From: Modestobacter altitudinis
Lineage (GTDB): Bacteria; Actinomycetota; Actinomycetes; Mycobacteriales; Geodermatophilaceae
DNA length: 64,000 nucleotides
Assembly (NCBI RefSeq): GCF_005930475.1
Contig: NZ_SJEW01000013.1
Span: 1-64,000, forward strand
Direction: 5' to 3'
In this document: positions 52,445 to 60,067 of the stretch, in pieces
How the letters are laid out: each line of letters starts with the position of its first letter
Position numbering within the stretch: position 1 is the first letter of the stretch
Program-made: the position numbers and the translations under genes
The notes under the pieces: generated by a model
The model's database searches: none
What the model was told of the DNA's origin: nothing
Seen by the model: only the letters and a program-made list of their open reading frames with translations

Positions 52445-53251
52445 GTGCCCGACGTCATGACCGAGCGCTCGGCGCGGGTCGCCGTGGCCCGCAAGCTCAC
52501 CCGCCGCAGCGGCCGGGACGACGCCGGGGCCTTCCTCGCCGAGGGGCGGCAGGCGGTCAGCGAGGCGCTCGCGGAGGCGGAGACCGACCCGGACGCCGTC
52601 CTCGAGCTGTTCGTCACCGAGGCCGCAGCGGTCGCCCACACCGAGCTGCTGGCCGGCACCCGGGTGCCGGTGCACCTGGTCACCGAGCGCGCCGCGGCGT
52701 CGCTGTCGGAGACGGTCACCCCGCAGGGCCTGGTCGCCGTCTGCGCGCTGCGCGACGTCGATCCCGGCACGCTGGTCACCGACCCGCCCCGGCTCGCGGT
52801 CGCGCTCGCCGAGCTCGCCGACCCGGGCAACGCGGGCACCGTGCTGCGCAGCGCCGACGCCTGCGGTGCGGGTGCGGTCGTGTTCGGCACCGGCTCCGCC
52901 GACCCGTACAACGGCAAGGTCGTGCGCAGCAGCGCCGGCAGCCTCTTCCACGTCGACGTCGTCCGCGGTGCGTCGCTGGCCGAGCTCGTGCCGCAGGTCC
53001 AGGCCGCCGGCACGATGGTGCTGGCCGCCGACGGCGGGGGTGAGGTCGGGCTCGACGAGGCCGCCGACGACGGCCTGCTCGCCGCCCCGGTGCTCTGGCT
53101 GTTCGGCAACGAGGCCCGGGGTCTGGACGCCGGGCTGGCGGCCGCCGCCCACGCCCGGGTGCGCATCCCGATGCGGGGCCGGGCGGAGAGCCTCAACCTC
53201 TCCGTCGCCGCGTCCATCTGCCTCTACGTCACCCAGCTCGCCCAGCGCTGA
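52445..53251 (+). CDS. SpoU/TrmH-family RNA 2'-O-methyltransferase
   Basis: A 268-residue SPOUT methyltransferase. The N-terminus (about 20-100) is the SpoU substrate-binding region; the catalytic knot has LAELADPGNAGTVLRSADACGAGAVVF, LFGNEARGLDAGL and IPMRGRAESLNLSVAASICLY (motifs 1-3). Position after rplT is conserved and the enzyme is likely a 23S rRNA methyltransferase related to RlmB/TsnR. Target nucleotide unknown. Confidence 0.9.
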   Translation: MPDVMTERSARVAVARKLTRRSGRDDAGAFLAEGRQAVSEALAEAETDPDAVLELFVTEAAAVAHTELLAGTRVPVHLVTERAAASLSETVTPQGLVAVCALRDVDPGTLVTDPPRLAVALAELADPGNAGTVLRSADACGAGAVVFGTGSADPYNGKVVRSSAGSLFHVDVVRGASLAELVPQVQAAGTMVLAADGGGEVGLDEAADDGLLAAPVLWLFGNEARGLDAGLAAAAHARVRIPMRGRAESLNLSVAASICLYVTQLAQR

Positions 53252-53263
53252 GCGCCGGACCGC

Positions 53264-54106
53264 TCAGCCCGGGAGCGTGATGAGGACGACGGCCGCCACG
53301 GCCGTCACGAGCCCGGCCACCTGCGCGCCGCCCAGCCGCTCCCGCAGCACCAGCTGGGCCAGGACGACGGTGCTGACCGGGTAGAGCGAGGCCAGCACCC
53401 CGGTGATCGCCAGGGCCCCGCCCTGCTGGGTGGCGAGCAGGAACAGCGCGTTCGCGGTCATGTCCCCGACCCCCGACAGCGCCACCAGCGGCACGGCCGG
53501 CCTCGCGACCCGCAGCGACCGCCTGCCGACGAGGGCCAGCACGGCAACCAGGGCCGCCGACGCCACCCGCGCCGCCACCAGGGGGGTCAGTCCCGCGTCG
53601 GCGGAGATGCGGTCCAGGAGGACGAAGAAGACCCCGAAGGCGGTGCCCGCGACGAGGGCGGGGACGAGGCTGGCCGGCCGGGCCGTCCGCAGCGCCGACA
53701 GGCCCCCCTCGGCCGAGACCAGCACCACGGCGACCAGTGCGAGGGCGATGCCAAGGGCGGCCCAGGCGGTGACGCTGTCACCGCTCAGCAGCCCGGCGAG
53801 GACCGGGACGGCGGCGGCGGTCACCGCGGTCACCGGTGCGACGACGCTCATCACGCCGGAGGCCAGGGCGCGGAAGAAGACGACCAGCCCGGCCGCGCCG
53901 GCCAGGCCCGCGGTCGCGCCCCAGGCCAGGTCGGCCGGCTGCACCGGACCACCCAGCCAGGGGAGCAGGACCAGCAGCGCGAGCAGGCCGACGGCCTGGG
54001 ACAGCACGACGACGCCGAACACCGACGCCCGCCGGCTGGACAGCCCGCCGAGGAAGTCCGAGGCGCCGTAGACCACGGCCGACGCCAGCGCCAGGAACAC
54101 CGCCAC
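53264..54106 (-). CDS. EamA/DMT-family transporter
   Basis: 280 residues, ten probable helices in two EamA repeats: LASAVVYGASDFLGGLSSRR and the second repeat ending LYPVSTVVLAQLVLRERLGGAQVAGLVTAVAAVVL. Exporter of small metabolites; substrate unknown. Confidence 0.85.
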   Translation of the reverse strand: MAVFLALASAVVYGASDFLGGLSSRRASVFGVVVLSQAVGLLALLVLLPWLGGPVQPADLAWGATAGLAGAAGLVVFFRALASGVMSVVAPVTAVTAAAVPVLAGLLSGDSVTAWAALGIALALVAVVLVSAEGGLSALRTARPASLVPALVAGTAFGVFFVLLDRISADAGLTPLVAARVASAALVAVLALVGRRSLRVARPAVPLVALSGVGDMTANALFLLATQQGGALAITGVLASLYPVSTVVLAQLVLRERLGGAQVAGLVTAVAAVVLITLPG

Positions 54107-54154: not shown

Positions 54155-56407
54155 TCAGCTCACCACCGGGTGCTTGCTGGCGTACATCCGGGCGTCGGCG
54201 CGGTGCAGCAGCCGGCCGAACTCGGCGCCGTCGTCGGGGTGCACGCTGACCCCGACGCTCGCCTGGACCTGCACGGTCTCCGCCCCGAGCCGCACCGGCT
54301 CGGTCAGCACGGACTGGAGCTGCTCGGCGACCCGCGCGGCCTCCCCGGGTGCGGTCGCCGGGTCCAGCCCGACCAGACCGACCAGGAACTCGTCCCCGCC
54401 GAGCCGGGCCAGCAGGTCGCCGCGGCGCAGCCGGCCGCGCAGCCGGTCGGCGACCACCTGCAGCAGCTCGTCGCCGGCGGCGTGGCCCAGGGCGTCGTTG
54501 ACCGCCTTGAACCCGTCCAGGTCCAGGAACAGCAGGGCGACTGCCGTGCCGTCGAGCCGGGCCTGCCAGAGCGCGGACTCCATCCGCTCCTCGAACCGGC
54601 GGCGGTTGGGCAGTGCGGTCAGCGGGTCGGTGTAGGCCAGCTCCTCGATCTGGGCCAGGTGCCGGCGGGTGCGGTCGCGCTCCTGCAGCAGCTCGCGCTC
54701 GGCGGTCACCCGCGCGGTCACGTCGGTCTGCACGCCGATGTACTGGACCACCAGGCCGGAGCTGTCGTGCACCGGCGCCAGGTGGATCTCGTTCCACCAC
54801 GGCTCGCGGTCCAGGCCGCGGTGGTTGAGCAGGGTCGCGCGGAACTCGGTGCCCTCGCGGATGGCCTGGCGCATCCGGGCGACCACCCCGGGGTCGGTGT
54901 CCGGGCCCTGCAGGAAACGGCAGTTGCGGCCCAGCGCCCTGCCGGTGGGGAGTCCGGCGAGCTGCTCGAACGCGGCGTTGACGTAGACCAGCGGCTGGTC
55001 CGGCGCGGTCATGTCGGCGATCGCGACCCCGCTGGTCGTGGCGGCCAGCGCACGCTGCAGCACCAGCTCCTGCAGCGTCGCGCCGTCGGCGACCCCGCTG
55101 CGGCGGACGACCGCGACGGGGTCCTCGGCGAGCTCCTCGACCGGCTCCGGCGGCACCGGCTGGGCGGCCACCCGGGCGACCAGCGAGACGCCGGCCCGCT
55201 CGACGGTGCGCCGCTCGTAGGTCAGCGCGTACTCGTACCGGCGCTGCAGGTCCGGGCCGCCGTCGCCGAGGTCCCGGGCGAGCAGTGCGGCGCTGAAGTG
55301 CGGGCTGAGCACGACGACGTCCCACTCACCGCGCACCGGGTCGTCCGGGGCGAGTGCGGCGCCACGCACGCCGGGCAGCGGCTCGACCGGCAGGTCCTCG
55401 CCGAGGGCGCAGACGAAGCCGGTGCGCGCCACCAGGTCGCGGTAGCGCAGCGCGGTCGCCGGGGTGAAGTGCCGGGCCTCCTGGAAGGTCGCGGCGACGA
55501 CGCAGGTCTCACCCAGCCGCATCGCCTGGCGCTCCAGGTGCTTGCTGAGCTCGATGAGCAGCGCTTTGGGAGCGGTCCGCAGCTGGGTGCCCGCCGGCAG
55601 GCAGCTGAACGGCGAGTCCGCCGGGTCGACGGCGGGGGTGCCCGCCGACGGCAGCAGGAGCCGGCCGACGGGCCGGCCGGGGACGGCGGTGGCGGCCGGC
55701 CGGCCGAAGTGCCAGCCCTGCCCCAGGCTGGCGCCCAGCGCCGAGGCCATGGCCAGGTGGGCCTCGTCCTCGATCCCCTCGGCCAGGATGACAGCGCCGG
55801 TGCGCTCGGCGTAGCCGTTGACCGCGTTCATGATCTCGGCGACGGCCGGGCCGGGCCGCTCCTGGACCAGCCGCAGGTCGAGCTTGATGACGTCGGGGCG
55901 GAGCAACGGCATGAAGGCCAGTGACATCGAGTCGGCACCGACGTCGTCCAGGGCGATGCCCCAGCCGACCTCGCGGACCCGCTCGACGGCACGCAGCAGG
56001 TCCGCCGGCCGGGTGGCCAGCGCCCGCTCGGTGATCTCCACGACGACCCGCAGCCCGGCCGGGGCGGTGGTCGCGATCGCGAGCAGCTCCTCCAGCGGCG
56101 CGGACTCGAGCACCTCGGGCTCGACGTTGACGAACACGGTCAGCGGCGGGCCGAGCTCCGCGGCCACCGCCCCGCGCAGCGCCGCCGCGCGGCACAGCGC
56201 GTCCAGGTGGCTGAGCCGGCCGGCGGTGCGGGCGGCGGCGAAGAGCGCGTCGGGGGTGTGCAGCGGGCCCTGCGGCCCACGGGCGAGTGCCTCGTAGGCG
56301 ACGATGCGGCCGCTGTCCAGCTCCACGATGGGCTGGTAGACGCTGTGCACGCCGCCGGTGCGGAGCACCTCGTCGATGGTCGAGGCCGGTGCCTCAGTCG
56401 TGGTCAC
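54155..56407 (-). CDS. EAL-DICT-LOV-GGDEF protein (probable light-controlled c-di-GMP enzyme)
   Basis: A 750-residue cytoplasmic signalling protein. EAL phosphodiesterase domain about 10-240: E39-A40-L41, N94, E124, the DD pair at 154-155 (DDVG replacing DDFG), K175, E210 and Q230 are in place. DICT-like sensory domain about 285-415 (RLGETCVVAATFQEARHFTP, EWDVVVLSPHF). LOV domain about 445-565: GRNCRFLQG with the flavin-adduct C496, and FMN contacts N528, N539 and Q560. A short coiled helix leads to GGDEF about 585-745 with intact GGDEF (670-674) and inhibitory site R661-x2-D664. Both catalytic domains and the photosensor look active. Which activity light controls is open. Confidence 0.9.
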   Translation of the reverse strand: MTTTEAPASTIDEVLRTGGVHSVYQPIVELDSGRIVAYEALARGPQGPLHTPDALFAAARTAGRLSHLDALCRAAALRGAVAAELGPPLTVFVNVEPEVLESAPLEELLAIATTAPAGLRVVVEITERALATRPADLLRAVERVREVGWGIALDDVGADSMSLAFMPLLRPDVIKLDLRLVQERPGPAVAEIMNAVNGYAERTGAVILAEGIEDEAHLAMASALGASLGQGWHFGRPAATAVPGRPVGRLLLPSAGTPAVDPADSPFSCLPAGTQLRTAPKALLIELSKHLERQAMRLGETCVVAATFQEARHFTPATALRYRDLVARTGFVCALGEDLPVEPLPGVRGAALAPDDPVRGEWDVVVLSPHFSAALLARDLGDGGPDLQRRYEYALTYERRTVERAGVSLVARVAAQPVPPEPVEELAEDPVAVVRRSGVADGATLQELVLQRALAATTSGVAIADMTAPDQPLVYVNAAFEQLAGLPTGRALGRNCRFLQGPDTDPGVVARMRQAIREGTEFRATLLNHRGLDREPWWNEIHLAPVHDSSGLVVQYIGVQTDVTARVTAERELLQERDRTRRHLAQIEELAYTDPLTALPNRRRFEERMESALWQARLDGTAVALLFLDLDGFKAVNDALGHAAGDELLQVVADRLRGRLRRGDLLARLGGDEFLVGLVGLDPATAPGEAARVAEQLQSVLTEPVRLGAETVQVQASVGVSVHPDDGAEFGRLLHRADARMYASKHPVVS

Positions 56408-60067
<3,660 letters not shown>

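Follow-up and report, generated by a model that had tools for sequence, protein, structure and literature searches.

An EAL-DICT-LOV-GGDEF protein of Modestobacter altitudinis as a candidate blue-light regulator of c-di-GMP

Here, we describe a gene of Modestobacter altitudinis whose product is built, from N- to C-terminus, of an EAL, a DICT, a LOV and a GGDEF domain. The protein is very probably a sensor of blue light that controls the synthesis, and perhaps the degradation as well, of c-di-GMP, the signal molecule that governs settling and moving. The gene lies in a window of 64,000 nucleotides (the whole stretch of DNA that was analysed; contig NZ_SJEW01000013.1, positions 1 to 64,000), and its features are collected in Table 1. 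The reading that we hold, with moderate confidence, is that of a blue-light photoreceptor setting c-di-GMP, in which the LOV domain drives the GGDEF domain and the EAL-DICT half forms a separate module. We set out below the evidence for the gene and its domains, the routes by which light could act, and the distribution of the layout among relatives, before placing the protein beside known systems.

Table 1. Features of the gene and its surroundings, in window coordinates
Feature	Position	Strand	Remark
SpoU-type RNA methyltransferase (called trmH)	52445..53251	+	conserved flank of slot
EamA-family transporter	53264..54106	-	48 bases downstream of gene, same strand
EAL-DICT-LOV-GGDEF protein, 750 aa	54155..56407	-	open reading frame; Pfam; closer relatives at 59-95% identity across nearly full length
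GGDEF domain, residues 591-746	54170..54637	-	Pfam 4e-42
GGDEF motif, residues 670-674	54386..54400	-	
Inhibitory site RRGD, residues 661-664	54416..54427	-	
LOV-GGDEF signalling helix, 35 residues, D562 of DVT to L596 of DPLT	54620..54724	-	
LOV domain, residues 450-565 by fold	54713..55060	-	Pfam PAS_9, residues 466-565, 7e-14
Codon of adduct cysteine C496	54920..54922	-	
DICT-LOV tether, residues 416-440	55088..55162	-	disordered, length-variable
DICT domain, residues 277-379	55271..55579	-	Pfam PF10069, 4e-13
EAL domain, residues 12-237	55697..56374	-	Pfam 7e-39; ten metal, catalytic and anchoring residues present
EAL loop 6 DDVGADSMSL, residues 154-163	55919..55948	-	divergent from DDFGTGYSSL
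pheS	56548..57615	+	divergent flank, then pheT

The frame opens with a GTG start codon and has GC contents of 0.80/0.50/0.97 at its three codon positions; because of this pattern and of relatives that align over nearly the full length, the minus-strand frame is taken as real despite long antisense frames, one of which (584 residues, window positions 54170-55924, plus strand) lies opposite the gene and is of the kind that high GC content would give. A chance open reading frame is ruled out by the open frame, its conservation in other genomes and the codon-position GC. A promoter scan returned 0 sites against 0.0 expected. All four Pfam calls (EAL, DICT, PAS_9 and GGDEF) exceed their cut-offs and bear out the domain order proposed by an earlier, sequence-only reading of this DNA, which had also pointed to the GGDEF motif and an RxxD inhibitory site, both of which are in place. 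An AlphaFold2 model of the full protein, built with 81 family sequences (the window's own and 80 of 87 other stretches), reached a mean pLDDT of 88.9 but a pTM of 0.58, and for this reason the individual domains are reliable whereas their mutual arrangement is not. In a Foldseek comparison its GGDEF and EAL domains resemble known enzymes.

The segment that would carry a light signal to the cyclase is the linker between the LOV and GGDEF domains. In PMC10396304, the linker of LOV-activated diguanylate cyclases (LadC) is defined as starting at the Asp of D(I/V)(T/S) and ending at the Leu of DxLT; its lengths fall into two clusters of 35 and 21 residues, 14 apart. By the same definition, it is 35 residues long in this protein and 21 in a paralog of the same genome (L141, contig C85:32456-34645), which is 47% identical and has the same four domains. 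Among 63 aligned proteins (rows) with both LOV and GGDEF domains, the window's own included, 52 have a linker of 35 and 11 a linker of 21, with no other length; a pattern match confirms the length in 52 of the 63, the other 11 being read from the aligned letters. As the rows share ancestry, some of them being 95% identical, these counts are not independent. Loci repeating one gene under a second locus id had been dropped beforehand, and the residue and linker counts leave out six loci (L127, L017, L217, L221, L223 and L030) because of a break, a truncation, a misread N-terminus or duplication; in these the linker is 35 wherever measured. The same two lengths recurred in a later set: 19 loci were scanned, 17 had a LOV-type domain with a GGDEF domain, and one of them, L244, duplicates L033, which left 16 further genes with linkers of 35 (10 genes) or 21 (6 genes), five of the 17 having been counted by eye where the script pattern had missed them.

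The GGDEF domain at the far end of this linker also carries LDLDGFKAVND, which, with the GGDEF motif itself and RRGD, we take to supply the motif, the substrate and metal residues and the RxxD site. Of the 63 rows that combine LOV and GGDEF domains, 58 keep an intact motif, and the degenerate ones (L124, L209, L212, L228 and L229) all come from one genus. By contrast, the motif is kept in none of the six distinct genes for EAL-DICT-GGDEF relatives that lack LOV, as expected if LOV drives GGDEF. The degenerate, LOV-less group probably represents two independent events on the tree. The association is not a general law, because L169, a LOV-less DICT-GGDEF protein of another layout, keeps its GGDEF motif. 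Two proteins of the later set (L250 and L251) read SGDEF.

The model joins the J-alpha helix and the linker in a single helix (residues 564-592), and R566 and E540 correspond to an Arg-Glu pair that is reported in many LadC homologs. The helical form of the linker in the model, its fixed length, its LadC type and the R566-E540 pair suggest that light would most directly drive the GGDEF domain through a rigid helix. Briefly, the protein would be cytoplasmic and probably dimeric; blue light would form an adduct between the flavin and C496, and the signal would leave the LOV domain via J-alpha, continuous with a coiled-coil linker that would set the two GGDEF domains of the dimer in a productive arrangement and raise c-di-GMP synthesis in the light, with the RxxD site damping synthesis again. 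The EAL-DICT half, held on a flexible tether, would act as a phosphodiesterase with its own regulatory input from DICT, removing c-di-GMP and keeping its level low in the dark. The sequence-only reading supposed that the protein would carry out synthesis as well as degradation of c-di-GMP under the control of light, which is a fair prediction.

The DICT-LOV tether contrasts with the LOV-GGDEF linker and its two fixed lengths. Over a fixed span it takes 13 different lengths, from 68 to 87 residues, among the 52 rows with 35-residue linkers; its middle part is about 24% identical among 22 hand-chosen orthologs, and residues 416-440 have a pLDDT below 50. As the tether is disordered and freely variable, we regard EAL-DICT as the more independent module, and the claim that light must control the EAL domain was set aside on the same grounds. 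A weaker form of that claim is that light acts mainly on the EAL domain of an SL2-like phosphodiesterase, the GGDEF domain being an accessory that senses GTP or is weakly active. In its favour, EAL and DICT are the best conserved domains among the 22 chosen orthologs (identity 0.81 each, against 0.74 for LOV and 0.71 for GGDEF), and several LOV-bearing relatives have a degenerate or lost GGDEF domain yet keep their EAL residues. Nine rows form an EAL-DICT-LOV clade (branch SH-aLRT 99%) in which GGDEF is absent and the LOV pocket intact, and the LOV domain there therefore serves something else, most simply EAL. SL2 itself is a precedent (PMC8846402), and the authors of the LadC work (PMC10396304) deem light regulation of EAL plausible in LOV-GGDEF-EAL proteins. 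The disordered, variable tether and the GGDEF motif retained in most rows with both domains nevertheless speak against such a route, and as an account of the present protein we think it rather unlikely.

For the EAL domain itself, comparison with MorA and RocR places E39, N94, E124, E127, D154, D155, K175, E210, E213 and Q230 at positions that we take to be metal and catalytic ligands. The claim that the EAL residues are all present thus stands for the ligands checked but not for loop 6, whose sequence DDVGADSMSL departs from the consensus (DDFGTGYSSL in MorA and DDFGAGYSSL in RocR); the long-linker relatives of this protein mostly have DDVGA(D/E)xxSLA. Since loop 6 is divergent, the domain might be a c-di-GMP receptor and not an enzyme. 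A domain that only binds c-di-GMP should have lost some of the ten residues, whereas these are intact in 70 of the 72 LOV-bearing rows of the alignment (six loci left out) and also in 23 of the 28 rows that lack LOV, one of them truncated, and we consider a pure receptor improbable. The two exceptions with LOV are L227, with R at E39, possibly through an alignment fault, and L134, with E210A. The domain is probably an active phosphodiesterase, though with an unusual loop 6. In two EAL-DICT proteins (L147 and L148) EAL residues are altered, and the domain there is possibly non-enzymatic.

The assignment of the PAS region as a true LOV domain, made first from sequence, is well supported by the model as well. 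The motif GRNCRFLQ with C496, together with N528, N539 and Q560, is present, and all 72 LOV-bearing rows, the window's own included, keep the cysteine, both asparagines and the glutamine. Ten-residue blocks of the core mostly reach a pLDDT of 91-97, and comparison of the predicted structure with known LOV domains by Foldseek gave the LOV chains of 9vf7, at 1.1-1.7 A, a TM-score of 0.90-0.95 over the target and 43-44% identity. The domain would accordingly be expected to bind flavin. It might do so and yet be no working photoreceptor, acting in redox sensing or passively in dimerisation: no spectroscopy of any family member was found in the literature searched, and a redox role of a LOV-like domain is discussed for RmcA (PMC8846402). 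We consider this very unlikely given a pocket kept throughout divergent paralogs and relaxed in a single case among the 17 later LOV genes. That case, L257 (a 3500-base locus, minus strand), has lost the adduct cysteine, with an intact GGDEF motif and a 21-residue linker, and is a natural 'blind' variant. The M. altitudinis genome also holds a further LOV-like PAS domain (contig C106:65608-65985), 45% identical to the LOV region, in a 779-residue open frame.

The DICT domain matches PF10069 with 49.9 bits, against a curated cut-off of 23.8. Modelled alone, with 71 of 94 stretches in the alignment, it reached a pLDDT of 94.5, and its best Foldseek matches were Zucchini, NucT, TrmB (one entry of which is titled sugar-binding domain) and polyphosphate kinase, which we take to share a phospholipase-D-like fold. 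These top four matches have E-values of 7e-4 to 2e-3 (one at or below 0.001) and probabilities of 0.99-1.0, and are weak in superposition, with TM-scores of 0.43-0.51 over the query and rmsd of 5-7. A profile search against solved structures gave no convincing relative, and of the catalytic HxKxxxxD no HxK occurs within residues 258-418. The predicted fold thus weakly resembles phospholipase D and TrmB but lacks their catalytic motif, which leads us to propose the binding of a ligand, with no catalysis, as its probable role. It is possible, and we offer this tentatively, that such a ligand-binding DICT domain sets EAL while LOV sets GGDEF, giving two separately controlled enzymes on one chain; the cell would then weigh a metabolite against light, and the 35- and 21-residue paralogs would form a steep switch and a graded dimmer.

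The genome (5.18 Mb, 161 contigs) has 30 GGDEF matches, 29 of which exceed the cut-off, together with 23 EAL, one PilZ and two DICT matches, the second DICT match being the paralog described above. When the DICT-LOV piece was used as a 306-residue query, at least 80 of 112 genomes of the bacterial family (Geodermatophilaceae), its own included, matched from residue 1-14 through 304-306. Matches at E up to 1e-36 were given by 62 of 298 genomes in an order sample and by 13 of 394 in a class sample, some of them by DICT alone. These matches across family, order and class rule out the contact of DICT with LOV as a single-genome oddity. In a phylum sample, DICT occurs in 31 of 396 genomes; 29 loci besides the window's were taken from 40 matches listed, and 26 of the 29 hit the DICT profile. 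EAL is present in 11 of these 26, one of which has LOV and GGDEF as well, and this difference (11 of 26 with EAL against one with LOV) identifies EAL-DICT as the wider-spread core. The suggestion that DICT beside LOV is unusual therefore holds for the phylum sample but not within the family, where the pairing is common.

Full or near-full matches include Motilibacter deserti, Cellulomonas aerilata and Geodermatophilus saharensis, and relatives vary between EAL-DICT, EAL-DICT-LOV, EAL-DICT-GGDEF and the full layout with a 35- or 21-residue linker. In three relatives (L127, L221 and L222), which stand outside the residue and linker counts, the gene is broken or split. A tree built by quick search from the EAL-DICT columns of 91 rows, with 13 loci excluded and a midpoint root only for drawing, needs 8 changes in LOV presence and 12 in GGDEF state, and places 10 of the 11 rows with 21-residue linkers together, L218 standing elsewhere. 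Because many deep branches are long, no order of gains is claimed.

The gene sits, divergent from pheS, in a conserved genomic slot. Of 84 regions surveyed, many of them picked for paralogs elsewhere, 34 have both trmH and pheS, or 33 distinct regions after removal of one repeat, and in all 33 the interval between the two holds a gene of the family or a piece of one. This is the full layout in 28 (L227 and L232 by match position, since their open frames run on), a form without LOV in three (L126, L219 and L220) and a split or broken gene in two (L221 and L222). The EamA-family transporter varies in position among relatives and is missing from some regions. Not every relative shares the slot: the seven full-layout genes examined from genus g4, which belongs to the same family (L121, L206, L207, L208, L211, L225 and L226), have none of these neighbours. 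We read the slot as a conserved position and not as a functional link, the neighbours being housekeeping genes. In one related genus, LOV-less EAL-DICT-GGDEF proteins with a degenerate GGDEF motif occupy the same slot near a LOV-bearing copy (L202, L204 and L224).

The closest known counterpart of the LOV-GGDEF half is MsLadC, a long-linker LadC (PMC10396304, PMC12805367; PDB 8c05), which likewise has a canonical LOV domain followed by GGDEF over a 35-residue linker; the helical linker modelled here and the R566-E540 pair add to the likeness. Entry 8c05 is the best solved match to this half by sequence (1e-44) and ranks first by Foldseek for the full model, but the whole chains fail to superpose on the dark-state structure (rmsd 22.8, TM-score 0.45 over the target). 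MsLadC belongs to the long-linker cluster and shows light stimulation on the order of 10,000-fold (PMC10396304). Two LOV-GGDEF pieces cut from LOV-GGDEF-EAL proteins, both with 21-residue linkers, gave no light-regulated synthesis (PMC10396304). In our protein EAL-DICT precedes LOV through the flexible tether, and two residues of the MsLadC caging interface are replaced, D44 and E46 aligning with P487 and G489; R174 aligns with L618, next to R617, at a position that is not clearly conserved, and the a* positions N126, N133 and K140 correspond to E570, R577 and L584. With these interface residues changed, this protein need not be tightly caged in the dark.

A second counterpart is SL2 of Synechococcus elongatus, which combines a canonical LOV domain with both c-di-GMP domains in one chain and hydrolyses c-di-GMP in blue light; its order is given as LOV-GGDEF-EAL, with no DICT named (PMC8846402), whereas in our protein EAL comes first and GGDEF last. 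DosP and PA0861 (PAS-GGDEF-EAL) also pair a PAS sensor with both c-di-GMP domains and rank high by Foldseek, but differ in domain order, lack DICT and, in DosP, sense oxygen. Actinobacterial EAL-DICT proteins (PF00563 with PF10069) share the other half, and differ in that one of the 11 EAL-bearing DICT loci of the phylum sample has LOV and GGDEF. More widely, LOV with GGDEF or with GGDEF and EAL accounts for about 18% of 1390 bacterial LOV proteins, according to PMC4844311. No published account of the EAL-DICT-LOV-GGDEF layout was found in the literature searched, subscription papers and domain databases lying outside its scope, so that the layout may be listed elsewhere; a review that takes up both DICT and LOV discusses the two separately; Modestobacter goes unmentioned in the literature on LOV, blue light or c-di-GMP among the matches listed.

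If our reading holds, blue light would become an input to c-di-GMP in these actinobacteria, whose habitat is sun-exposed soil and rock. The natural domain-deletion variants of the protein family, and linkers of 35 and 21 residues within one genome, offer a direct test of how linker length bears on the light response of the cyclase, and the family also lets the role of the unexplained DICT domain be probed. Set against the known systems, the combination of LOV with GGDEF and EAL is familiar; this protein varies it by placing EAL first and adding DICT, with both linker classes in one genome and relatives that have lost domains.
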